Shown: positions 24,746 to 37,990 of the stretch, piece after piece
Layout: each line of letters starts with the position of its first letter
Numbering within the stretch: the stretch's first letter is position 1
NCBI GenBank assembly: GCA_026393985.1
Contig: JAPKZB010000095.1
Coordinates: forward strand, 1-64,000
Source: Acidobacteriota bacterium
Lineage (GTDB): Bacteria > Acidobacteriota > Terriglobia > Bryobacterales > Bryobacteraceae
Length of the DNA stretch: 64,000 nucleotides
Reading direction: 5' to 3'
Notes under the pieces: model-generated
What the model was told of the DNA's origin: nothing
The model's input: the letters and a program-made list of their open reading frames with translations, nothing else
The model's database searches: none
Made by a program: the position numbers and the translations under genes

Positions 24746-26326
24746 GTGTTGCGGATACTTTTTGTCTTCGTATTGGCGGTCGGGCTGGGTCTGGCCCAGG
24801 AATCGGCGCGTAGCCTTGGCCGCCGGGCGGCCAAGGCCGAGAAAGCCGGCCAGCTGGCGGATGCGATCCTGCTCTACAACCGGGCCGCCGCCCGCCATCC
24901 CGGCAACCGGAAATACGCCGCGAAGAGTCGGATTCTCACGGAAAAGGCACTGCGGCAGAGCGCTCTGCCGGCGGCCGCGACCCCGCCTCCGGCGCCCGGA
25001 CTGGCCCCGCAGCCGGCCGGGTCGATCCCTGCGGCCGACCTGCGCGAGGCGCAACGTTTCCTGCCGCCACCGGAGTTGTCGTTGGGCCGCGGGCCATATG
25101 CGTTCTCCCTGCGCGGCACCCCGCGGGAGGTGATCGAACGAACCGGGCGGGAGCTGGGCGTCGAAATTGAGTTCGATGATGAGTTCCCGGCCGATGCTCC
25201 TCCGGTCCGCTTCGCTGTGAGCGAGGCTACCGGGACCGAGGTAGTCGAAGCGCTCGCCGCGGCAACGGGAACGTTCTTTGTCCCGTTACAGCCCAAACGG
25301 ATGTTGGCGGCCAAGGATTCCGAGCGGAAGCGGCAGGATCTCGAGCCGATGGTGGCCGTTGTCCTTTCGCTGCCTGAGCCGGTGAGCGTGCAGGAGATTC
25401 AGGAGTTGGCGCGGGCCGTGCAGCAGACGATGGAGCTGCAGAAGTTTGCCGTCGACAACAGCCAGCGCCTCGTGCTGATGCGCGACCGGATCTCCAAGGT
25501 CCGTCCCGCCCAGCAGATTTTTGAGCAGATGATGGGGGCGCGGCCGGCCGTGGCGATCGAAGTGGAGATCCATGAGATACGACGTAACCGGTCGCTGAAC
25601 GCGGGCACCCGGATGCCTTCTTCCACCGAGATTTTTGCGGTAGCGGAAAACCCGGCAAACGGCGTCGACAAGCGCCTGCCGGCGATTCCGCTCTCTTCGG
25701 CCCGGATGGTCGAACCGCGGCTGGCGATCACCCTGGGCGATGCCGCTCTGGTGGCGAATCTGCTCAAAACGGCCGGCAGCCAGGTGCAGAGGTCCGAGGT
25801 CCGGACCATGCACGGCATGCCGGCGCAGTTCGCCGTGGGTGAGCGCTATCCGATTCTTACGGCAGGCTTCTTCGGCGGGGAGGTGGATAACAATTCGTTC
25901 CGGCCGCCTCCGACGTTTCAGTTCGAAAATCTCGGGCTGACGCTGAAAGCCACCCCCTATACGCATGGTCTGGGGGAAACCACCGTCGAACTCGAGGCGG
26001 AGTTCAAACTGCTGGCGGGGGGGCAGATTAACGGCATCCCGATCCTGACCAACCGGAAGTTTGCCTCCACGGTACGGCTGGTGAACGGAGAGTGGGCGCT
26101 GATCTCCGGCGTCGGCAGTGCTTCGCGGACACTGACCGCGGCGGGGCCGGCCGGATTGTCGCGGATTCCGCTGATCGGCAAACTATTCCGCCGGAATACG
26201 GTGGAGCTGGATGAATCCGAGACCGTGGTTCTGCTCCGGCCCCGGTTGCTGGGCCTGCCGCCGAGCGAGACGTGGACCCGAGAGATCCGCCTCGGCAGCG
26301 AGACCTACCCCCGGATTCCGCTCTAG
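24746..26326 (+). CDS. Secretin-like outer-membrane protein (type II/III secretion family)
   Basis: 526 residues from GTG 24746. Signal peptide (LRILFVFVLAVGLGLAQ), then a short TPR-like helix pair at about 25-50, a Pro-rich linker, and an N-domain-like part at about 105-270 (FSLRGTPREVIERTGRELGVEIEFDD). Residues 275-510 match the secretin core: VAIEVEIHEIRRNRSLNAG, YPILTAGFFGG, LGLTLKATPY, WALISGVGSASR and PLIGKLFRRNTVELDESETVVLLRP. No other secretion-system gene is nearby, apart from the divergent AAA+ ATPase. Confidence 0.82.
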   Translation: MLRILFVFVLAVGLGLAQESARSLGRRAAKAEKAGQLADAILLYNRAAARHPGNRKYAAKSRILTEKALRQSALPAAATPPPAPGLAPQPAGSIPAADLREAQRFLPPPELSLGRGPYAFSLRGTPREVIERTGRELGVEIEFDDEFPADAPPVRFAVSEATGTEVVEALAAATGTFFVPLQPKRMLAAKDSERKRQDLEPMVAVVLSLPEPVSVQEIQELARAVQQTMELQKFAVDNSQRLVLMRDRISKVRPAQQIFEQMMGARPAVAIEVEIHEIRRNRSLNAGTRMPSSTEIFAVAENPANGVDKRLPAIPLSSARMVEPRLAITLGDAALVANLLKTAGSQVQRSEVRTMHGMPAQFAVGERYPILTAGFFGGEVDNNSFRPPPTFQFENLGLTLKATPYTHGLGETTVELEAEFKLLAGGQINGIPILTNRKFASTVRLVNGEWALISGVGSASRTLTAAGPAGLSRIPLIGKLFRRNTVELDESETVVLLRPRLLGLPPSETWTREIRLGSETYPRIPL

Positions 26327-28566: not shown

Positions 28567-28609
28567 CTCCCTTCACGCTTTTCTGTTGCGAAGTCAAATA
28601 CGATACGCT

Positions 28610-28633
28610 ATTCTCATCTTCTCAGATGAGAAT
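28610..28633. promoter_or_regulatory. 9-6-9 inverted repeat upstream of the CobN-like operon (candidate operator)
   Basis: ATTCTCATC and GATGAGAAT are perfect 9-base arms separated by TTCTCA, ending 11 bases before the first start codon. A weak promoter can be read as TTGCGA at 28586-28591 and TATTCT at 28609-28614, which would place the repeat over the -10 box. TGAGAAT/ATTCTCA half-sites recall Fur-family operators, but the spacing is not the classical 7-1-7. A metal-responsive repressor site is inferred, not shown. No T-run follows, so it is not a typical terminator. Confidence 0.5.
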
Positions 28634-28644
28634 GCGATCTCGTA

Positions 28645-29832
28645 ATGAATAGCGACTTCCTCAGCCTCCTGCTCGCCTTCGCACTCCTCGCCGCTTTGCG
28701 CGACGCCTGCGTGCTGACCGGGATCGCGCATACGCGTCCGCGTCTGACGATTCTGGCCGGCTGGCCGGTGCTGGCGCTGCTGCTCGGTGGGGAAGCCGCC
28801 GACCGCCTGTCCCCTGCGCAGACGATGAGCCTGCTGCGGCCGCTGCCGATTTGGGCCGGATGTCTGGCTGTTCACGCTTTGCTGGCCGGCTGGCTGATGT
28901 GCCAGACGCCGGACCGGCCCCGCCCGCTGCTCAGCTTGTGGTCCGGCCCCGTGTTCATCGCCTTTGCCGTTGGCTTTCCCGCCGTTCTGCTCCAGCACGC
29001 TCCTCTTCCAAACGGCCTGTTGGCGGGCGTTGTCGCCGTGGTTGTCTACGGCCTGCTGGTTGGCGTCTTTGCGGTGCTGTTCCGGCTGCGCCGCCCTTCG
29101 GCTGGGCGGATGCAGGACCTGCTCGCCGGGTCTCATTTGTCCGCCCTGCTTCTGGTCCCCTTTGCCGGGACCACCGGTCTTACCATGAACTCCCTTCACG
29201 ATCTTCTCTACGTTCTCTCGAATGCCTTTTTGCTGCCGACGCTCCTCGGCACCCTGGTTGCTTTCGCCTACGGCGTCTGGGTTGTTGGACGGTTTCTGGC
29301 CGAGCGGGCCGAGCATCGCCACAACGCCGCGGCGATCGCCCGCCTGATGCAGGGGGAACCGGAACAGACGCGTTTCCTCGAACTGCCGCTGCGCGGCGAC
29401 TGGCGCCGGTTGCAACGGGCCGTAGGCCAGCATGCGGACTTTCCAGCGATGATCGACAAGACCGTGGCGGACCTCGAACACCTGATGCAGGGGCGCGTCG
29501 AGCGGTTGGGGATCATGGCCAAAGTGGGGCCGATGCTCGGCCTGGTCGGCACGTTGATCCCGCTGCAGCCGGCGCTGGCCGGACTGGCCAAGGGCGACAT
29601 GCAGGCGATGGCGTCCAATCTGCAGATCGGCTTCACCACTACGGTGCTGGGTCTGCTGGTCGGCGGCGCCTGCTACGCCGTGAGTGTGGTGATGCGCGGT
29701 TGGTATCAACAGGACCTCGCTGACATGAGTTTTCTGTTGGCGTTGTGGCTGCCGGAGGAGAACGGCGCGCCCGGTATCCAGGACTCCGGGGAGTCGTCCC
29801 GGCTTACTCCAGTGAGGCTCGAATCGAAATGA
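28645..29832 (+). CDS. MotA/TolQ/ExbB-family proton channel with extra N-terminal membrane module
   Basis: 395 residues, much longer than ExbB (about 240). The C-terminal half holds the ExbB/TolQ signature region: KVGPMLGLVGTLIPLQPALAGL (about 291-313) and IGFTTTVLGLLVGGACYAVSVVM (about 327-350), preceded by the cytoplasmic helices that carry VADLEHLMQGRVERLG. The first 170 residues contain about five further hydrophobic helices with no ExbB counterpart, so the gene may be a fusion with a separate small membrane protein. It overlaps the CobN-like gene by ATGA. Such channels in hmu-type loci lie next to CobN-like and DUF2149 genes. Confidence 0.8.
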   Translation: MNSDFLSLLLAFALLAALRDACVLTGIAHTRPRLTILAGWPVLALLLGGEAADRLSPAQTMSLLRPLPIWAGCLAVHALLAGWLMCQTPDRPRPLLSLWSGPVFIAFAVGFPAVLLQHAPLPNGLLAGVVAVVVYGLLVGVFAVLFRLRRPSAGRMQDLLAGSHLSALLLVPFAGTTGLTMNSLHDLLYVLSNAFLLPTLLGTLVAFAYGVWVVGRFLAERAEHRHNAAAIARLMQGEPEQTRFLELPLRGDWRRLQRAVGQHADFPAMIDKTVADLEHLMQGRVERLGIMAKVGPMLGLVGTLIPLQPALAGLAKGDMQAMASNLQIGFTTTVLGLLVGGACYAVSVVMRGWYQQDLADMSFLLALWLPEENGAPGIQDSGESSRLTPVRLESK

Positions 29833-32800
29833 AACAGAAACTGGCGATTGCCCTTGCCACCCTGGCCCTCTGCGCGGGCGGCTACTTTGCCTTCCGGGCG
29901 TTGACGCGTCCGAAGATTCTCTTCCTTGGCTTCGCCGATCAGCTCGTCATCCTGGCTGAAAAGGCAGCCGAAAAGAGCGGGATCAAAGTAGAGACCTGGT
30001 CCCGGGAGACGGTCGATGCCGCCACCAAACCCTTTGATCTGCTGCCCTTCAAGGTGGTTCTGGTCAGCGGCTTACGCGCCGAGCCGTACTCGAAAGAGGC
30101 CCAGCAGGCCTTTGCGAACGCTGTCAGCGCCGGGGTGAAGGTGATCGTCCTGCCGCCCCGGCAGGCCGAAATGATGCGTCTGGGCAATGCGGACTTTGCG
30201 GCTAAGGACAAGTTTGTCAGCGGCTACTTTTCAAACGGCGGCGTCGAGAACTGGGCGCGGCTCCTCCGCTTTCTGACGGCGACCTACGCCGGCGGCAACG
30301 CCCCGGTCGAACCGCCCGCCGCGCTCCCGGAAAGCGGCTTCTATCATCCTGGCGCCGCCGATGTCATGACGACCACGGCGGCCTACAAAGCCTGGTACGC
30401 CAAGACCGGTCGCGAGAAGCCCGGCCAACCCTGGGTCGCGCTCGACTTCTCGCAGGGCTGGAAAACCGGTATCACCCAGGGTACCGACGGCCTCATCAAC
30501 GCCTTTGAAAAACGCAACTTCAACGTGGCGGCGCTCTTCGGCGCCACGCAGCTCGGTCAACTGCTCGAAGAGGTCAAGCCGGATCTGATCGTCAACCGGT
30601 CGCACGGGCGCTTCTTTCAGGGCGAGCGGGGAGTCGAACTGATGAATGCCCGCATCGACGCCCCCATTGTGCGCGGCCTTACGTTGATGTTTGAGCAGAA
30701 GACCATCGACGAATATCAAAAAGACAAGGGCGGCATCCGCGGCCCGGGGCTTTCGATTGGCACCGTGGTGAGTGAACTCGACGGGACCGTGGAGCCGGTG
30801 CTGATTGAAGGCATGGTGAAGGACACCGCCGGGCGCCGCGTGGAGGCGCCAATTGCCGAACGGGTCGAGCGCCTCGTGGACCGCGCCGAGCGGTGGGTGC
30901 GGCTGCGGCGCGTGGCGAACGCGGAAAAGAAGATCGCCGTCGTCTACTTCAACGGCATCGGCAAGGCGGACTTTACAGCGCAAGGGATGAATGTTCCGCG
31001 CAGCCTGGTGGGCTTTCTCAATCGGATGAAGGCGGCCTTTTACCGCGTCGAGAACAACCCGCAGGACGCCGAACAGTTGCTCCGCTTGATGCAAGCCCGC
31101 GGCCGGAACGTGAGCGAGACCGAAACGGGCGAGATGGAAAAGCTGGTGGCGGAACCGGGTGTCACCCTGCTGCCGGTAGAGGGTTACAACTCCTGGTTTG
31201 CCAAGCTCCCGGCGGCCATGCAGACGGCCGTCACCGAAGCCTACGGCCCCCCGCCCGGCGCCTTCATGACGGTGCGCCGCCAAGGAAAGAGCTTCTTCGT
31301 GCTGCCTACACTCTCTTTCGGCAACGTCGTTCTACTGCCCCAGCCGGCCCGCGGCGCGGTGATGGACTCCAAGCTGGCTCACTCCGATAAGGTCCCGCCG
31401 CCGCATCAATACCTCGCGCTCTACTGGTGGCTGCAGGAGGGCTTGCGGGCCGATGCGCTGGTGCACTACGGCACGCACGGCACCTATGAGTTCCTACCCG
31501 GCCGGCCGGTGGGCCAGATGGAGGACGACTGGTCGGACCGGGTCGTCGCCGCGCTGCCGAATGTCTACGTCTACACGATGGACAACGTGGGCGAGGCCCT
31601 GATCGCCAAGCGCCGCGGCTCGGCCGTGCTGGTCAGCCATCAGACGCCGCCCATCCAGGCCGCGCAGTTGTCTGTATCCGACCAGGAGATCGCCACCCTC
31701 TACCGCGAAACGCAGCGCTTCGTCGCGCAGGATCCGGGCCTGTTGAAGGAGCAGATGCGCGCACGCATTGCCGAAGTGGCCGTGCGCCGCAAGCTCGATC
31801 AGGACCTGCGCTACGACTGGCGCCGCGCCAAACCCACCGACGAGCAGGTAGCCGCCCTCGACGCCTACCTCGACGAACTCGAGGAGTCCCGCATCCCCGT
31901 TGGCATGCACACCCACGGTGTAGCGAACGACCCACGGGAGCTGCGCCAAACCATGGTGGAGATCCTCGGCCCCGAGTTCCTGGCCAAAGCCGGCGGCGAT
32001 CGCCAGCGCGCGGCCGAACGGGTCGGCTCCCTGATGGCCGCCACCCCGGCGGTTCCCGTGCGGCTGGCCGGCTTTGAACGCCCGTTCGCTCCCACCCCCG
32101 GCACCGGCAAGCGCGAGTTCGCCCCCGAAACGCAGCCCGCCAAGCCGGCCCCGATCGCCAGCGGACACCCGGCGTGGATCCCCAAAATTGGTGCCCCGCC
32201 GCCCGACGTGCAGGCCCGCATGCAGCGCGCCAACAGCCCGGTGGCCATGGCCTTCGGCGATGGACCAGCGGCTCCGGCGTCCGGCCCCACCCCCACCCCC
32301 GCGCCCACGGACGACGCCTCCCGCGTCGCCATGCTTAAAGCCGCTTTCGCCGAATCCGCCAACGAGGTCAACCAGACCCTCCGGGCCCTCGACGGCCGCT
32401 ACATCCGCCCTGGCGGCGGTGGCGACCCCGTCCGCACCCCCTCCGCGCTGCCCACCGGACGCAATCTGTACGGCGTGAACCCGGCCGAGATCCCCACGCG
32501 CGCCGCCTGGGACGTCGGCGTTGCGCTCGGCGGCCAGCTTCTCGACGCGGAACGCAAGCGCCTGGGGCGCTGGCCGAAGAAGGTGGGCTTCAACCTGTGG
32601 CCGACGGAGCTGGTGCGCCAATATGGATCGGACCTGGCGCAGGCGCTCTTCCTGCTCGGCGTCAAGCCGGTGTGGGATCAGCGCGGCATCGTCATCGATC
32701 TCGAAGTGATTCCCATGAGCGAACTCAAGCGGCCGCGCGTCGACGTCGTCCTGCAGGCCGCCGGGCAGTTTCGCGACTCCTTCCCCGATCGCATGGAGCT

Positions 32801-33953
32801 TCTTGATAAGGCTGTCCGTCTGGCCGTACTCGCCAAGGACGGCGACAACTACGTGGCGCAGGGTTCGGAGGCTTTGGAGCAGTCTCTCAAGCAGTCGGGC
32901 CTCTCCGCCAAAGAAGCCCGCCAGCTTTCCCACGCTCGCATCTTCTCGAACGGTCCCGGCGGCTACGGCACCGGCCTCACCGGCGGCATCTCCAACTCGG
33001 GCGCCTACACCGATACCAAAGAGCTGACGGCCGAGTATCTCGACCGGGCCGGCGCCGTCTACACGCAGGGCGCCGAGTGGGGCAGGAAGGTCCCGGAGCT
33101 CTATCAGTCCGCGCTCAAGGGCACCGATGCGGTCTCTATCTCGCACTCGTCAAACACCGTTTCGGCCCTCACGCTCGACCATTACTTTGAATACTCCGGC
33201 GGCATGGTGATGGCCATCCGCGACACCACCGGGCAGAACGCCGCCGCCTATTTGGCCGATACGCGCGACGCCAACAAGTCCCGCGTCAAAACCGTCGAAG
33301 ACGCGCTGGCCGCCGATCTCCGCACGCTCTACTGGAACCGCAAATGGATCGACGGCATGAAGCAGAACGACTTCTCCGGCGCCTCGGAGATCGCCAAACT
33401 CGCCTCCAATCTCTACGGCTGGCAGGTCACCAAACCGGACGCCGTGAAGGGCTACATGTGGGACGAAATCCATCGCATCTATGTCGAGGACCGCGACAAC
33501 CTCGGCCTCAAAGAGTGGTTTGACAAAAAGAACCCGTACGCCTTCCAAAACCTCTCGGCCACGCTGCTCGAAACCGCTCGCCAAGGCTACTGGAAGCCCG
33601 ATGCGCAGGTGCTCGCCACGCTGGCGCAGGCCTATGCGCAGTCGGTGGCGGCGCACGGCACGGCGGGCGGCGAGCGCACCACCGGCAACAAGGCCCTCGC
33701 AACCTTTGTGCAGCAACAGTTGAACGCCCCGGGCAACGGCAACGGCCAGCAACTCTCCCGCCGCTACGCCGAGGCGCTCGACCGCGCCAACACCCGCAAT
33801 CAGTCCAGCGCCATCGTGGCCGGCCAAAAGCTCGTCCGCGAAATGGCCGCACCGGCCGTGCCCACCACGGTGCGCAACTCTCTTCTCGGCGGCCTGGCGC
33901 TTGTCTCCCTGGCCGCTCTCTTCTACTTCGGAACTCGCAGGAAAAACTCATGA
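29829..33953 (+). CDS. Membrane-anchored CobN/magnesium-chelatase-H-like protein (HmuS type)
   Basis: 1374 residues from ATG 29829, coupled to the upstream gene by ATGA. CobN family hallmarks: HYGTHGTYEFLPG at about 546-558, PGGYGTGLTGGISNSGAYTD, and the DHYFEYSGGMVMAIRD region. Unlike cytoplasmic CobN of B12 synthesis, it has an N-terminal hydrophobic helix (LAIALATLALCAGGYFAF) and a C-terminal helix (LLGGLALVSLAALFYFG, about 1350-1368) ending in RRKNS. The bulk is therefore probably periplasmic and tethered at both ends. A Pro-rich insertion spans about 753-835. No CobS/CobT or other cobalamin gene is nearby. HmuS of Bacteroidetes shares this kind of locus; chelatase or reverse-chelatase action on a metallo-tetrapyrrole is inferred. 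Confidence 0.88.
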   Translation: MKQKLAIALATLALCAGGYFAFRALTRPKILFLGFADQLVILAEKAAEKSGIKVETWSRETVDAATKPFDLLPFKVVLVSGLRAEPYSKEAQQAFANAVSAGVKVIVLPPRQAEMMRLGNADFAAKDKFVSGYFSNGGVENWARLLRFLTATYAGGNAPVEPPAALPESGFYHPGAADVMTTTAAYKAWYAKTGREKPGQPWVALDFSQGWKTGITQGTDGLINAFEKRNFNVAALFGATQLGQLLEEVKPDLIVNRSHGRFFQGERGVELMNARIDAPIVRGLTLMFEQKTIDEYQKDKGGIRGPGLSIGTVVSELDGTVEPVLIEGMVKDTAGRRVEAPIAERVERLVDRAERWVRLRRVANAEKKIAVVYFNGIGKADFTAQGMNVPRSLVGFLNRMKAAFYRVENNPQDAEQLLRLMQARGRNVSETETGEMEKLVAEPGVTLLPVEGYNSWFAKLPAAMQTAVTEAYGPPPGAFMTVRRQGKSFFVLPTLSFGNVVLLPQPARGAVMDSKLAHSDKVPPPHQYLALYWWLQEGLRADALVHYGTHGTYEFLPGRPVGQMEDDWSDRVVAALPNVYVYTMDNVGEALIAKRRGSAVLVSHQTPPIQAAQLSVSDQEIATLYRETQRFVAQDPGLLKEQMRARIAEVAVRRKLDQDLRYDWRRAKPTDEQVAALDAYLDELEESRIPVGMHTHGVANDPRELRQTMVEILGPEFLAKAGGDRQRAAERVGSLMAATPAVPVRLAGFERPFAPTPGTGKREFAPETQPAKPAPIASGHPAWIPKIGAPPPDVQARMQRANSPVAMAFGDGPAAPASGPTPTPAPTDDASRVAMLKAAFAESANEVNQTLRALDGRYIRPGGGGDPVRTPSALPTGRNLYGVNPAEIPTRAAWDVGVALGGQLLDAERKRLGRWPKKVGFNLWPTELVRQYGSDLAQALFLLGVKPVWDQRGIVIDLEVIPMSELKRPRVDVVLQAAGQFRDSFPDRMELLDKAVRLAVLAKDGDNYVAQGSEALEQSLKQSGLSAKEARQLSHARIFSNGPGGYGTGLTGGISNSGAYTDTKELTAEYLDRAGAVYTQGAEWGRKVPELYQSALKGTDAVSISHSSNTVSALTLDHYFEYSGGMVMAIRDTTGQNAAAYLADTRDANKSRVKTVEDALAADLRTLYWNRKWIDGMKQNDFSGASEIAKLASNLYGWQVTKPDAVKGYMWDEIHRIYVEDRDNLGLKEWFDKKNPYAFQNLSATLLETARQGYWKPDAQVLATLAQAYAQSVAAHGTAGGERTTGNKALATFVQQQLNAPGNGNGQQLSRRYAEALDRANTRNQSSAIVAGQKLVREMAAPAVPTTVRNSLLGGLALVSLAALFYFGTRRKNS

Positions 33954-36817
33954 AGCTCCTTTTTGCTCTTCTCTGTCTCGCCTCCGCCGCTCTGGCGCAA
34001 GGGGTCAACGCCTATCTGTCGGGCACCATCCTTGACCCCTCCGAGAAACCCGTGTCGGATGCCACGATCCGCGTTACCGCGCTCGCGAGTAATCAGACGC
34101 TGCTTGGCCGTTCCACCGACGCCGGCCTGTTCCGCATCAACGGACTGGCTTCGGGCAGCTACTCACTGACGATCGAAAAGGAGGGCTTCAAACCCTACCG
34201 CCTCGCCTCGCTCGAGCTGGTTGTCGGCCAGGAGGTGAATCGGACGATTCGCCTCGAGATCGGCACCGTGCAGGAAGCCATGATTGTCTCCGATGCCATC
34301 GCCGAAATTGAACGCGTGGCCTCGAACGGGGTCCGCGGTTCGAACTATTCGCCGCGCGAGGTGACCAACATCCCGATGATCGCCGGCGGCCAGGGTCGCA
34401 ACTACCGCGCGCTGGCTTACCAGACCCCCGGCGTCGGCTTCACCTCCGCCGCCCACGCGCCCTTCACCGTGAACGGCAACCGCCCCATCGGCGCCGTCAA
34501 CACCATGGTCGATTCGGCCGAATATAACGACCCGGTCTCCGGTAATCTGCTCGGCCGCGGCCTCACCGAACAGCCCGTCTCCATGGAGACCGTTGAAGCG
34601 TTTGAGATGCAGACCTCCAACTTCAAAGCCGAGTTCGGCCGCGCCTCGGGCGCCGTCGTCAACCTGGTCACCAAGCAGGGCGGCAACGACTGGCACGGGT
34701 CCGCCTACTATCTGTTCCAGAACGAAGCACTCAACTCCCGCAACCCGCTGCTCACCGCGCGCAACCCGGTCCGCGTCAACATGCCCGGCATCACCCTTGG
34801 CGGGCCTCTTAAGAAAGACCGTCTCTTCTTCTTTGGCGGTTACGAAGTGAACGCCCGCAACGCCTACCGCTCCTCATCCACCATCACCACGCTCACCGCC
34901 GCCGAACGCGCTCGCGCCGTCCCGGCCGTCCAGCCCCTGCTGGCCTTCTATCCCGAACCCAACATCCCCGGCACCAATCTGCAGAGCGCCGCCGTCTCCA
35001 GCCCCACTACGACGCTCACCGGCATCGTCCGGCTCGACTACCAGATCAACGCGCAACACCGCCTGGCCGCCCGCCGCAACTGGGTCAACGCCATCGGCCC
35101 CACCCGCGACCGCGTCCAGGCCGGCAATGCCGACACCATCAATCACTCCCACTCCTCGGTCGTTAGCCTGGATTCCACCCTCTCGCCCCGCGCCTTCAAC
35201 CAGTTTCGCGGCACCTATTCGAGCTTCTATTCGAAGGTCACGCCCAACTCGCCTGTGCTCGGCAATCCCGCCATCAACGGCACCATCGGTCTGCTGCTCG
35301 TCACCGGCCTGCCCCGCCTCGGCACTTTCATCCCCCCCACCGAGACCCGCACCCACAACTTCACCTTCGCCGACGATCTCAGCTACAGCGTCGGCAAGCA
35401 CATCTTCAAGGCCGGGGTGATCGGACGCGTGATTCAATACAACTCCACCAGCGACCGTAACTTCAATGGCACCCTGATCTTCCCCTCGGTCCCGGCGTTT
35501 CTGGCCGGCATGCCGCTCACTTACTCCCGGGCTGTCGGCATCAGCCGCATCGACCAGCGCAACCGCGAACTCGGCTGGTACCTGCAGGACGACTGGCGCC
35601 TCACCCGCACCTTCACCCTGAACCTCGGTGTCCGCCATGAATACTACGGCGTACCCACGGAACAGGCCGGCCGTCTGACGCAGTCCTACGCGGCCGACCG
35701 GAACAACTTCGCCCCGCGCCTTGGCTTCGCCTGGGATCTGCAGGGCAAATCCACCACCATCCTCCGCGGCGGCTACGGCCTGTTCTATTCGCCGCTCCAG
35801 ATGGACTTCATCGCCCAGTCGCGCTTCACCCCGCCGCAGGTCACCACCTTCTCCCGTTTCCAGCCCCGCTTCCCCGACCTGCTCGCCGGCGCCGTCATCG
35901 GCTCGGACAGCTACCTGGTCGACCGCAGCCTGGTCAATCCCTACGTCCAGAACTGGAACCTCACCGTCGAACGGCAGCTGTTCACGCGCGGCAGCGTGCT
36001 GAGCCTGGCCTATGCGGGCAACCGTGGCCTGAAACTGCCCCGCACCGTACTGCCCAACGGCGGCGCGAACCTCTTGCCGGCTCTACGCCCGAATCCCGCT
36101 CAAGGCGTGGTCACCTATCTCACCTCCGGCGTCAGTTCGAACTACCACGCCTTCCAGACGGCACTCAATTTCAAGGTCGGGCGCCGGTTGACCCTCCGTT
36201 CCAGCTACTCCTTCTCAAGGGCCATCGACAACGCCTCCGATACCACCCTGCTGCCCATCGATGACCGCAACCTCCGCCTCGACCGCGCCGTCTCCGACTT
36301 CCACCAACCGCATCTGCTCAATTTTTACTCCGTCTACGATCTGCCGTTCTTCGCGCGCCACCGCTGGCTCGGCGGCTGGCAGGTGACCGGCCTTCTGTTC
36401 GCTCGCAGCGGCACCCCGTTCTCCCTGCTGGCCAACGCCAACAACCCCTTCGGCACCCTCAACAACCGCATCAATAACATCCCCGGCACGATCGACCGCA
36501 CCCCCAACGGCAGCCAGTGGTTCCGTCTCGCCCCCGGCGTCACCCCCGCGCAGATCGTCCCGGCCGCCAACCAAACCGGCACGCTCGGCCGCAATACGGA
36601 ACGCGCTCCCAGCTTTGCCGACGTGAACCTCTCGCTCCAGAAGAGCATTCAACTCACCGAGCGCTTCAACGCCCAGTTCCGCGCCGAAGCCTTCAACTCC
36701 CTGAACCGGGCCAACTACGACGCGCCCATCAACAACCTCGGCAACGTACTGTTCGGCCGCATCCTCACCGCCGGGGAAGCGCGGCAGTTCCAGCTCATGC
36801 TCAAGGTGGTCTTTTAA
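33950..36817 (+). CDS. Oar-like TonB-dependent outer-membrane receptor
   Basis: 955 residues, overlapping the CobN-like stop by ATGA. Signal peptide MKLLFALLCLASAALA, then a carboxypeptidase-regulatory/CNA-B-like domain at about 22-105 (LSGTILDPSEKPVSDATIRV). The plug region follows at about 120-245, and a large beta-barrel continues to the C-terminal aromatic end (MLKVVF). Acidobacteria carry many such receptors, usually of unknown substrate. Its place inside a CobN/ExbB/DUF2149 operon points to a metallo-tetrapyrrole or metal ligand, which is inference. No TonB gene is present in the window. Confidence 0.9.
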   Translation: MKLLFALLCLASAALAQGVNAYLSGTILDPSEKPVSDATIRVTALASNQTLLGRSTDAGLFRINGLASGSYSLTIEKEGFKPYRLASLELVVGQEVNRTIRLEIGTVQEAMIVSDAIAEIERVASNGVRGSNYSPREVTNIPMIAGGQGRNYRALAYQTPGVGFTSAAHAPFTVNGNRPIGAVNTMVDSAEYNDPVSGNLLGRGLTEQPVSMETVEAFEMQTSNFKAEFGRASGAVVNLVTKQGGNDWHGSAYYLFQNEALNSRNPLLTARNPVRVNMPGITLGGPLKKDRLFFFGGYEVNARNAYRSSSTITTLTAAERARAVPAVQPLLAFYPEPNIPGTNLQSAAVSSPTTTLTGIVRLDYQINAQHRLAARRNWVNAIGPTRDRVQAGNADTINHSHSSVVSLDSTLSPRAFNQFRGTYSSFYSKVTPNSPVLGNPAINGTIGLLLVTGLPRLGTFIPPTETRTHNFTFADDLSYSVGKHIFKAGVIGRVIQYNSTSDRNFNGTLIFPSVPAFLAGMPLTYSRAVGISRIDQRNRELGWYLQDDWRLTRTFTLNLGVRHEYYGVPTEQAGRLTQSYAADRNNFAPRLGFAWDLQGKSTTILRGGYGLFYSPLQMDFIAQSRFTPPQVTTFSRFQPRFPDLLAGAVIGSDSYLVDRSLVNPYVQNWNLTVERQLFTRGSVLSLAYAGNRGLKLPRTVLPNGGANLLPALRPNPAQGVVTYLTSGVSSNYHAFQTALNFKVGRRLTLRSSYSFSRAIDNASDTTLLPIDDRNLRLDRAVSDFHQPHLLNFYSVYDLPFFARHRWLGGWQVTGLLFARSGTPFSLLANANNPFGTLNNRINNIPGTIDRTPNGSQWFRLAPGVTPAQIVPAANQTGTLGRNTERAPSFADVNLSLQKSIQLTERFNAQFRAEAFNSLNRANYDAPINNLGNVLFGRILTAGEARQFQLMLKVVF

Positions 36818-36818
36818 C

Positions 36819-37211
36819 GTGCCCGTCCGCCGCGTCCTGCCGCGCGGAGCGGCCGCCGGTTGGCGGACCCGCTCCCGCCAGTTTCTCCGCGCCGGCGGTG
36901 AGGACAACGACCCGCTGCTCGGCCTCATCAACCTCTTCGACGCCAGCATGGTGCTGGTCGTCGCCATGCTCCTGTCTCTCATCGCCAAAGGCAACCTCGC
37001 CGATATGGCCGCCCGGCTCTCGCAGCAGGACGTGACCATCGTCACCAACCCCGGCAAGCCCGACATGGAGATGGTGATTAAGCGCGGCAACAAAATCGAG
37101 AAACTCAAAGCCACCGGTGAAAAAGGCGCCGGAGCCGGCAAACGGCTGGGATCGGCGTTTCGCCTCGAAAACGGCGAAGTCGTCTATGTTCCCGAAGGAA
37201 ATCAACCATAA
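36819..37211 (+). CDS. DUF2149 family protein, ExbD-like topology
   Basis: 130 residues from GTG 36819, one base after the receptor stop. A basic cytoplasmic N-terminus (about 1-35) leads into a single helix DASMVLVVAMLLSLIAKG (about 41-58) that begins with Asp41, and a small periplasmic domain follows. This is the layout of ExbD/TolR, in which a membrane Asp carries protons. DUF2149 is the recurrent neighbour of MotA/TolQ/ExbB-like and CobN-like genes in hmu-type loci. Its stop overlaps the next start by one base (TAATG). The ExbD analogy is an inference from topology and motif position. Confidence 0.82.
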   Translation: MPVRRVLPRGAAAGWRTRSRQFLRAGGEDNDPLLGLINLFDASMVLVVAMLLSLIAKGNLADMAARLSQQDVTIVTNPGKPDMEMVIKRGNKIEKLKATGEKGAGAGKRLGSAFRLENGEVVYVPEGNQP

Positions 37212-37990
37212 TGCGAACCATACTCTTCCTGACCACTCTGTTTTTGTTGGCCCCGGCTCCCGGGCGGGCGCACTGGCCCTGGCTCGAGCCGGGCTCGGCC
37301 TCCGATCCCGCCCGCGCCTACTTCGGCGTCTACCCCGCCGATCGCATGGGCGGCGCCCAGATCAACGCCATGGCGAAGGCCAGTTTCTGGGCCGTCGATG
37401 CCAAGGGCGCCTTTGAACAACTGACCCCGCAGGCCGAAACCAACGCCCTCTCGTTGGGCGCGCACGACGGCGTCGTGATGAGCTATCCCTTCGGCGTCTA
37501 CGCCGGCCATGGCCCGGCCTCGCTGATTCTCTTCTCCGCCAAGGCCTTCCGCGGCAAACTGGCCACCCGCAGTCCCGAGGTGTTACCGCTCGATATCGTT
37601 CCGGTTGCCCACGCCGTAGTCGAGCGCGGTAAGCCGGCGTCCTTCCGGCTGCTGCGCAACGGCAAGCCGCTCGCCGGCGCCACGGTGGCCGCCTACACCG
37701 CCGCCCAGGGCGAAGCCCACGCCGCGGCCCGCAAGGCTGCTAAAGCAGCCGGCCATGATCATGGCCACGAAGCCAAAGCCCACGGCGCCAAGAAGGAGGG
37801 CAGCGGCGAACTACCCCCCGATGCTCTGCAGACCACCACCAACGCCGCCGGCCAGTTCACCTTCACCGTACCCTCCGCCGGAGCCTATCAACTGCACGTC
37901 AGCCTGCGGGAAGCCACGCCCGGGACGCACAACGGCAAGGCCTACGAAACGGTCACCCTGGTCTCTACCCTGCGCTTCGACGTCCGGTAG
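37211..37990 (+). CDS. DUF4198 periplasmic protein with His-rich loop
   Basis: 259 residues. Signal peptide MRTILFLTTLFLLAPAPGRA, after which the mature protein would begin with HWPW. DUF4198 proteins are small exported beta proteins often linked to nickel, cobalt or other metal uptake. Here the second half carries an Ala/Lys/His-rich insertion with His170, His182, His184, His186 and His191 (AGHDHGHEAKAHGAKKEG), a plausible metal-binding loop. It closes the five-gene coupled operon and is followed by a strong hairpin. Confidence 0.8.
   Translation: MRTILFLTTLFLLAPAPGRAHWPWLEPGSASDPARAYFGVYPADRMGGAQINAMAKASFWAVDAKGAFEQLTPQAETNALSLGAHDGVVMSYPFGVYAGHGPASLILFSAKAFRGKLATRSPEVLPLDIVPVAHAVVERGKPASFRLLRNGKPLAGATVAAYTAAQGEAHAAARKAAKAAGHDHGHEAKAHGAKKEGSGELPPDALQTTTNAAGQFTFTVPSAGAYQLHVSLREATPGTHNGKAYETVTLVSTLRFDVR

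Follow-up and report, generated by a model that had tools for sequence, protein, structure and literature searches.

We analysed a window of 64,000 nucleotides, positions 1 to 64,000 of contig JAPKZB010000095.1 from an acidobacterial genome of the Bryobacteraceae (assembly GCA_026393985.1), and describe here a five-gene operon at positions 28645-37990 of its plus strand, built around a CobN-like homologue of the class I chelatases that is related to HmuS of the Bacteroidota haem-utilisation (hmu) system. The genes are, in order:

28645-29832, plus strand: ExbB/MotA/TolQ-type proton-channel protein with a fused N-terminal membrane domain, 395 amino acids (PF01618, 37.2 bits, residues 263-355)
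29829-33953, plus strand: CobN-like class I chelatase homologue, by sequence a sister of HmuS, 1374 amino acids (PF02514, 979.5 bits)
33950-36817, plus strand: Oar-type TonB-dependent receptor with an N-terminal carboxypeptidase-regulatory domain, 955 amino acids (PF25183, OMP_b-brl_4, 476.3 bits; PF13620, 56.4 bits)
36819-37211, plus strand, GTG start: DUF2149 protein (HmuV family) with one hydrophobic helix and a conserved NLFD motif (PF09919, 96.2 bits)
37211-37990, plus strand: DUF4198 protein with a signal peptide and a presumed mature N-terminus at His21 (HWPW; judged by eye) (PF10670, 46.5 bits)

All five open reading frames are present in this order and, read directly from 5' to 3', their junctions are an ATGA overlap, a second ATGA overlap, a single base between TAA and GTG, and a TAATG. 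In a Pfam domain scan every product exceeds its cut-off, including the CobN, MotA_ExbB, DUF2149 and DUF4198 profiles by which the first-pass annotation of this DNA had meant its assignments to be checked. The full order ExbB, CobN-like protein, receptor, DUF2149 and DUF4198 also occurs in L044, L045, L047 and L048, whose contigs span the locus, and such recurrence in four relatives is not expected by chance (L044 comes from a near-identical strain); the contigs of L043 and L050 end after two of the genes and that of L046 after three. A gene for an alpha-L-fucosidase lies upstream, and downstream the opposite strand encodes a cytidylate kinase and an ACT-domain amino acid kinase; these flanking genes are of other kinds, and the five-gene unit therefore stands alone. 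The touching genes described in the annotation are borne out by the open reading frames, the junctions, the Pfam scores and the recurrence in relatives, and they form a real operon.

In a sister set of 15 loci (set B), ExbB, DUF2149, the CobN-like protein and a receptor are found together, and a single-sequence search of this set found no DUF4198. The four-gene core of ExbB, DUF2149, CobN-like protein and Oar-type receptor is present in 19 of the 20 loci tabulated for the window's subclade (clade A) and set B, the exception being L046, whose contig breaks off within the receptor gene and so does not reach DUF2149. DUF4198 was detected only in clade A. The conserved linkage predicted for all five genes is thus kept in relatives, but for a core of four.

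The CobN-like protein covers positions 2-1089 of the 1090 positions of the Pfam CobN-Mg_chel model (979.5 bits), and nine NCBIfam CobN and BchH/ChlH models match it, all below their cut-offs (the best at 811 bits versus 1248). Among PDB structures searched with phmmer the best match is HmuS (642 bits), followed by Mycobacterium tuberculosis CobN (402) and ChlH (391), and identity to Bacteroides finegoldii HmuS is 30.6%. In mixture-model trees the Bryobacterales clade is united with HmuS and a small third lineage at support of 100/98 (30 rows) and 100/99 (31 rows, chosen from a table of 79), and a FastTree of all 79 rows recovers the same group with support 98. The 31-row tree places the window protein beside the HmuS clade and not inside it, and the trees do not resolve the branching order of the three lineages within the group. 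The published criterion for HmuS (PMC12583661) is at least 50% identity to Bacteroides thetaiotaomicron HmuS together with a complete six-gene hmu operon; here we find no HmuY and no demonstrable HmuT, and the 30.6% identity refers to the B. finegoldii protein. Judged by sequence, the CobN-like protein belongs to a sister family of HmuS and is not HmuS as so defined. The hmu-like logic suggested in the annotation is upheld by HmuS as the best solved match, by the grouping in the trees and by the linkage to ExbB, DUF2149 and a receptor.

The third lineage consists of L033 in the 30-row tree and of L033 and L135 in the 31-row tree, and is joined by L144 in the 79-row set; all three proteins read HHAYEY in the 1209 region. 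Receptor, ExbB and DUF2149 genes adjoin the chelatase gene in L135 and L144, and L033 is a 4.7 kb contig from a genome that carries ExbB, DUF2149 and a receptor on another contig (L058). A separate acidobacterial locus (L051, 2701-14180; G206:C31) encodes an HmuS-clade protein together with ExbB, DUF2149, a receptor and an HmuT-like protein, among which a gene for a PQQ/Kelch-type protein is interposed, and by its gene content is an hmu-like operon outside Bacteroidota.

HmuS is reported to turn haem into protoporphyrin IX and Fe(II) in an NADH-dependent reaction, to hold haem at Met79/His254, and to lose turnover when His538 is replaced by alanine (PMC12583661). Three histidines of the window protein align with key positions of that enzyme:

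30603-30605, plus strand: His259, equivalent to HmuS His254 (haem site 1, His-Gly-Arg motif)
31476-31478, plus strand: His550, equivalent to the catalytic His538 of HmuS
33180-33182, plus strand: His1118, equivalent to HmuS His1209, with the equivalents of Asp1208 and Glu1212 alongside

In the window motifs VHYGTHG and LTLDHYFEYSGG the key residues are identical to HmuS His538/Glu577 and His1209/Glu1212, respectively, although LTLDHYFEYSGG is not a letter-for-letter match to the LSLDHxxEFMGG region of HmuS. Loss of the active site, which the annotation had named as grounds for abandoning its proposal, is not what we find, the catalytic His and Glu residues being retained by alignment. Across the residue table, His254 and Gly255 occur in all 33 rows of the HmuS-containing group, with His254 in one of 46 rows outside it (L074), and Arg256 occurs in 30 of the 33, missing in the third lineage. 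His1209 is likewise found in 33 of 33 group rows, and in two of 45 rows outside (L063, which is BchH-like, and L074), the count of 45 instead of 46 reflecting L161, which was excluded only from the 'other' counts in residue scoring. Glu1212 follows with 33 of 33 rows inside and four of 45 outside. His538, His506 and Glu577 are present in every group row (33/33) and are near-universal outside as well (45/45, 44/45 and 45/45), and are therefore superfamily markers.

Hydrophobic, membrane-like segments lie near both termini of the window protein, with peak mean hydropathy of 1.68 at the N-terminus and 1.75 at the C-terminus. The C-terminal segment recurs throughout the HmuS-containing group and in most receptor-linked proteins; the ten rows that group with CobN/BchH do not have it, their C-terminal hydropathy being at most 0.5. 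The tethered chelatase of the annotation agrees with these hydropathy profiles of a chelatase homologue. Cytosolic CobN and ChlH/BchH share with the window protein the class I chelatase family and the HxGxHG histidine, but they differ in having no C-terminal hydrophobic segment and mostly an Asp at the 1209 column.

The ExbB-like protein departs from the hmu arrangement in its first part:

28645-29202, plus strand: membrane domain at the N-terminus of the ExbB-like protein, corresponding in position to HmuT and encoded by a separate gene in sister loci

Residues 1 to about 185 form this distinct membrane domain, which in L049 and other sister loci is encoded separately by a gene immediately preceding exbB, the place occupied by HmuT in hmu operons. 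By this comparison of gene order, the ExbB-fused membrane domain takes the position of HmuT. The annotation had noted that HmuY- and HmuT-type parts were missing; there is indeed no HmuY, but the absence of HmuT is not a safe conclusion. Homology of the domain to HmuT received an hhalign probability of 0.4%. An iterated profile of the domain drew in a single protein of the DUF2162 family (L071, E 6e-5); a score of 99.6% obtained with that profile was due to the L071 protein inside it, and falls to 5.8% when this protein is left out.

GLxGT and TTTV segments occur in the ExbB part of the window-clade proteins, and hhalign matches the family to Escherichia coli ExbB/TolQ with a probability of 89%. 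The partner protein HmuV has been annotated as DUF2149 (PMC10434189) and is described elsewhere as having no homology to a known family (PMC13227078). In DUF2149 an Asp stands at the head of the hydrophobic helix in 43 of 44 rows and aligns with the Asp of ExbD, but hhalign gives the whole alignment a negligible probability of 5%. The resemblance to ExbD is one of motif, and an AlphaFold model of DUF2149 (6 sequences, pLDDT 50) was unusable. Of the proposed ExbB/DUF2149 motor, the ExbB side is supported by family membership, while DUF2149 contributes a weak ExbD-like motif; on this footing we infer a stator or motor role for the pair.

In the five aligned DUF4198 proteins an invariant His stands at the expected end of the signal peptide (5/5; cleavage site judged by eye). 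A characterised DUF4198 protein is reported to bind Ni(II) by two histidines, the N-terminal one and His18, and Zn and Co more weakly, with an N-terminal His following the signal peptide in 79% of DUF4198 proteins (PMC12537917). The window protein has Phe instead of His at the 18-residue mature spacing, and four other histidines are invariant among the five. The structure model (pLDDT 65, pTM 0.68) matches the Ni-bound DUF4198 protein of Ideonella sakaiensis (9gcb; Foldseek E 6e-10) and Zcp (9mhl; 8e-12), which resemble it in predicted fold and in the N-terminal His after the signal peptide and differ in the His 18 residues into the mature form, identity being 14-21%; further matches are Zcp structures holding zinc, cobalt or copper. 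A profile of the five sequences matched no PDB chain by sequence, so the fold match is one of structure alone. In Caulobacter, two DUF4198 genes are reported to be strongly induced by iron limitation and by loss of fur, and one of them clusters with a hemin receptor gene (PMC3751524). It is plausible that the window protein carries some divalent metal in the periplasm. Two further DUF4198 matches lie about 1 kb apart on contig C35 of the same genome (L176 and L178), the second below the family cut-off.

Two elements precede the first gene:

28586-28614, plus strand: promoter-like sequence TTGCGA-N17-TATTCT, a pattern shared among clade A loci
28610-28633, no strand assigned: perfect inverted repeat of two 9-base arms with a 6-base spacer, overlapping the -10 element, a possible operator read from the sequence

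The pattern TTGCNN-N17-TA[CT]T[CA]T begins 59-77 bases 5' of the first gene in six of six clade A loci examined (the window and L044-L048), has a single match over both strands of the 64 kb window and was not seen upstream in L049 (0/1); it was written after viewing those same sequences, L044 being near-identical to the window, and is therefore descriptive. The inverted repeat is identical in the near-identical L043/L044. The upstream motif GATANNNTATTCTCA has one exact match in its own genome, at this locus, and three one-mismatch matches; a control pattern gave one match per strand, and the idea of a regulon was dropped. A gene for a secretin-domain protein lies further upstream of the operon (24746-26326).

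Gene order, protein families, the kinship with HmuS and the retained residues are what we observe; from them we propose a course of events and, with it, the location of the proteins, the direction of the reaction and its substrate. The operon would be a metal-acquisition machine working like the hmu system, a reading that as a whole we favour with moderate confidence. The Oar-type receptor would carry a metalloporphyrin, most likely haem, over the outer membrane. The CobN-like protein, anchored in the inner membrane and projecting its body into the periplasm, would bind the metalloporphyrin and take the metal out between the facing His550 and His1118, as HmuS yields protoporphyrin and Fe(II). 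The ExbB-like protein, with its fused domain, and DUF2149 would assemble into a proton-driven complex supplying energy to the receptor or the chelatase. In the window's subclade the secreted DUF4198 protein would take up the freed divalent metal, which would then enter by an ordinary inner-membrane transporter, for example FeoB. The annotation had allowed the metal to be either removed or inserted; the relationship to HmuS favours removal, and insertion less so. In keeping with this, we judge it rather probable from the sequence comparisons that the sister family works like HmuS.

Like hmuYRSTUV of Bacteroidota, the operon holds in one unit a CobN-like protein with hydrophobic ends, an ExbB-like protein, DUF2149 (HmuV) and a TonB receptor, and the two chelatase homologues, which fall in the same tree group, share His254-Gly-Arg, His538/Glu577 and His1209/Asp1208/Glu1212. 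The acidobacterial version differs in its gene order, in an Oar-type receptor in place of HmuR, in the ExbB-fused domain at the place of HmuT and in the additional DUF4198 protein.

A number of observations weigh against a haem-directed, HmuS-like function. HmuY, as noted, is absent. In the 26 Bryobacterales rows Met79 is replaced by Leu or Arg (Leu in the window), Gly80 by Arg (26/26), Gln299 by Ile, Met or Val (Ile in clade A), Trp1202 by Ile, Val, Thr or Ser, and Ser1067 by Ala (26/26). Of the axial pair Met79/His254, the window protein keeps His254 with its HGR motif and has lost Met79, and the predicted haem-propionate residues are changed (Ser1014, Ser1067, Gln1198 and Trp1202). The HmuS clade itself has Met79 in two of four rows and Gln299 in two of four. 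There is no Met-rich domain IV insertion, the corresponding stretch of the window protein being Pro-rich, with 23 Pro and 5 Met in 147 residues; as a marker of HmuS this insertion was rejected, since it is absent in the window protein and three of the four HmuS-clade rows likewise have only 4-10 Met. The Azospirillum protein L074 (9602-14333), encoded within a few kb of nikR, carries both histidines (columns 254 and 1209) yet falls in another clade, which weakens the pair as a strict marker. Six loci with a chelatase homologue of the window clade (set C: L134, L139, L140, L164, L165 and L172) have no ExbB or DUF2149 match on the stretches examined, and five of them no receptor match there (the sixth, L172, has one encoded about 3 kb off on the opposite strand). 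The characterised relative of the DUF4198 protein prefers Ni, then Zn and Co. Finally, the operator-like repeat was not seen in L045-L048, and nothing at the locus indicates regulation by iron.

The place of the window protein with HmuS favours an iron-porphyrin, and the DUF4198 protein and the changed contacts leave room for other substrates. As a tentative possibility, the Bryobacterales clade may be a separate family of periplasmic de-chelatases in which the metal-removal centre of HmuS acts on a different tetrapyrrole, driven by ExbB/DUF2149 and served in the subclade by a DUF4198 carrier.

We consider it unlikely that the operon acquires zinc, nickel or cobalt in the manner of PA1922-PA1925 of Pseudomonas aeruginosa, the receptor taking up free or chelated metal, the CobN-like protein stripping or relaying a non-haem metal, and DUF4198 acting as carrier. 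By published gene content PA1922-PA1925 likewise brings together a receptor, a CobN-like protein, ExbB/D-like proteins and DUF2149, but DUF4198 is not among the genes given for it and it is zinc-controlled, as part of the Zur regulon (PMC9431628, PMC4542158). Of the Pseudomonas compared, P. aeruginosa alone is reported to place PA1922 under Zur (PMC10393844). Other modules do lie in a hyp cluster (Runella), near nikR (Azospirillum) and in a cobamide locus (Trichlorobacter), and the fold matches of DUF4198 are Ni- and Zn-bound proteins; however, the chelatase homologues from these nickel and cobalt contexts fall in another clade (in the 30-row and 79-row trees, and two of the three in the 31-row tree), and in most of them the 1209 column holds Asp and the His-Gly motif is missing, L074 with both histidines excepted.

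Somewhat less likely still is a de-chelatase for a particular porphyrin other than haem b, such as sirohaem, a product of chlorophyll breakdown or some other metalloporphyrin. The catalytic His/Asp/Glu set is kept while the equivalents of Ser1014, Ser1067, Gln1198 and Trp1202 are changed, the site-1 residues around His254 differ, and two relatives are metagenome-assembled genomes with depth-cast names (65 m and 100 m), from settings where pigment debris is plausible. The propionate contacts of HmuS are themselves predictions (PMC12583661), however, and the content of the locus indicates no particular pigment. A biosynthetic subunit inserting cobalt or magnesium in cobalamin or chlorophyll synthesis, which the family name CobN/Mg chelatase would suggest, is highly improbable and was rejected: neither CbiC nor CobT was found in the genome (CobS was not searched), in agreement with the annotation's remark that the usual cobalamin partners are not here, the gene is linked to a receptor gene instead of cob genes, and the hydrophobic segments at the two termini, which set the protein apart from the CobN/BchH rows, and the sub-threshold scores of all nine NCBIfam models point the same way. 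By sequence and context, the protein is not a cobalamin enzyme.

Returning to the hmu-like reading, the genome that carries the operon (5.9 Mb, 96 contigs, 97.9% complete) has a single CobN-family gene, one ferrochelatase and one FeoB, and we found no PF01126 haem oxygenase (other haem-degrading families were not searched). CobN-family genes are patchy within the genus, eight further genomes having one and ten having none. In the phylum scan DUF2149 was matched in 11 of 396 genomes (8 over the cut-off) and CobN in 34 of 396, and in the order scan CobN in 61 of 257; regions were taken for part of these matches (18 + 60, several repeating earlier loci). Gene context was tabulated for 95 sources, outside which stand L043, L044 and L050, and the 79-row residue table was reached by dropping repeats or near-repeats (L116, L117, L120, L124, L125, L133, L163 and L056), broken, truncated or over-long frames (L057, L064, L067, L128, L166, L171 and L173) and sources with no CobN (L058 and L077), with L075 contributing two rows. 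L056, L064 and L067 are absent from the residue alignment and trees, and L057 is additionally absent from the 30-row tree onward. Among the dropped sources, L124, which represents the L044 locus, carries the complete five-gene set, L173 is a clade-type locus that is truncated but includes ExbB and DUF2149, and in L128 (7717-11763) an in-frame stop interrupts the CobN-like gene of another Bryobacterales genome (G471). Three of the six set C genomes (G642, G645 and G647) also yielded a complete locus.

Elsewhere, pairs of an acidobacterial receptor and a CobN-like protein with no nearby ExbB or DUF2149 match (L059, L060, L141, L143, L149, L152, L155, L157 and similar) fall in a separate clade whose 1209 column holds Asp or Glu. 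On a Runella plasmid (L072, 2226-16484), a receptor, a NicO/DsbD-like membrane protein (below the Pfam cut-off), ExbB, DUF2149 and a CobN-like protein lie within a hypABFCDE cluster, which suggests a nickel version of the module. On Trichlorobacter pGLOV01 (L071, 1438-17051), CobN-like, ExbB, DUF2149, DUF2162 and receptor genes lie among cobamide genes, suggesting from context a cobalt or cobamide version. Plasmid-borne CobN-ExbB-DUF2149 modules also occur within hmu operons (L068, L073 and L078). Together with the Zur-regulated operon of P. aeruginosa, the plasmid loci suggest that CobN-ExbB-DUF2149 is one module serving several metals.

Among the matches listed in literature searches on HmuS/CobN, ExbB and DUF2149, no title or abstract opening describes the acidobacterial system. 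HmuS has been described mainly for Bacteroidota, and biological removal of metal from an intact tetrapyrrole is called controversial in the 2025 HmuS paper (PMC12583661); here Acidobacteria are seen to have a sister clade that shares the catalytic histidines, in an organism with its own ferrochelatase. This suggests that the metal-stripping chemistry is older and wider than haem use in the gut, and HmuS-type mining of metal from porphyrins probably exists, as far as sequence can tell, outside gut bacteria in a different build. The clade offers a natural comparison set, in which conserved residues separate the needs of metal removal from the determinants of substrate; the changed site-1 residues raise the question of whether the haem at Met79/His254 takes part in catalysis, and the linked DUF4198 protein is a candidate destination for the freed metal. 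If the clade does act on a different tetrapyrrole, the CobN-like protein, ExbB and DUF2149 would constitute a general metal-stripping module adapted to iron, zinc, nickel and cobalt.

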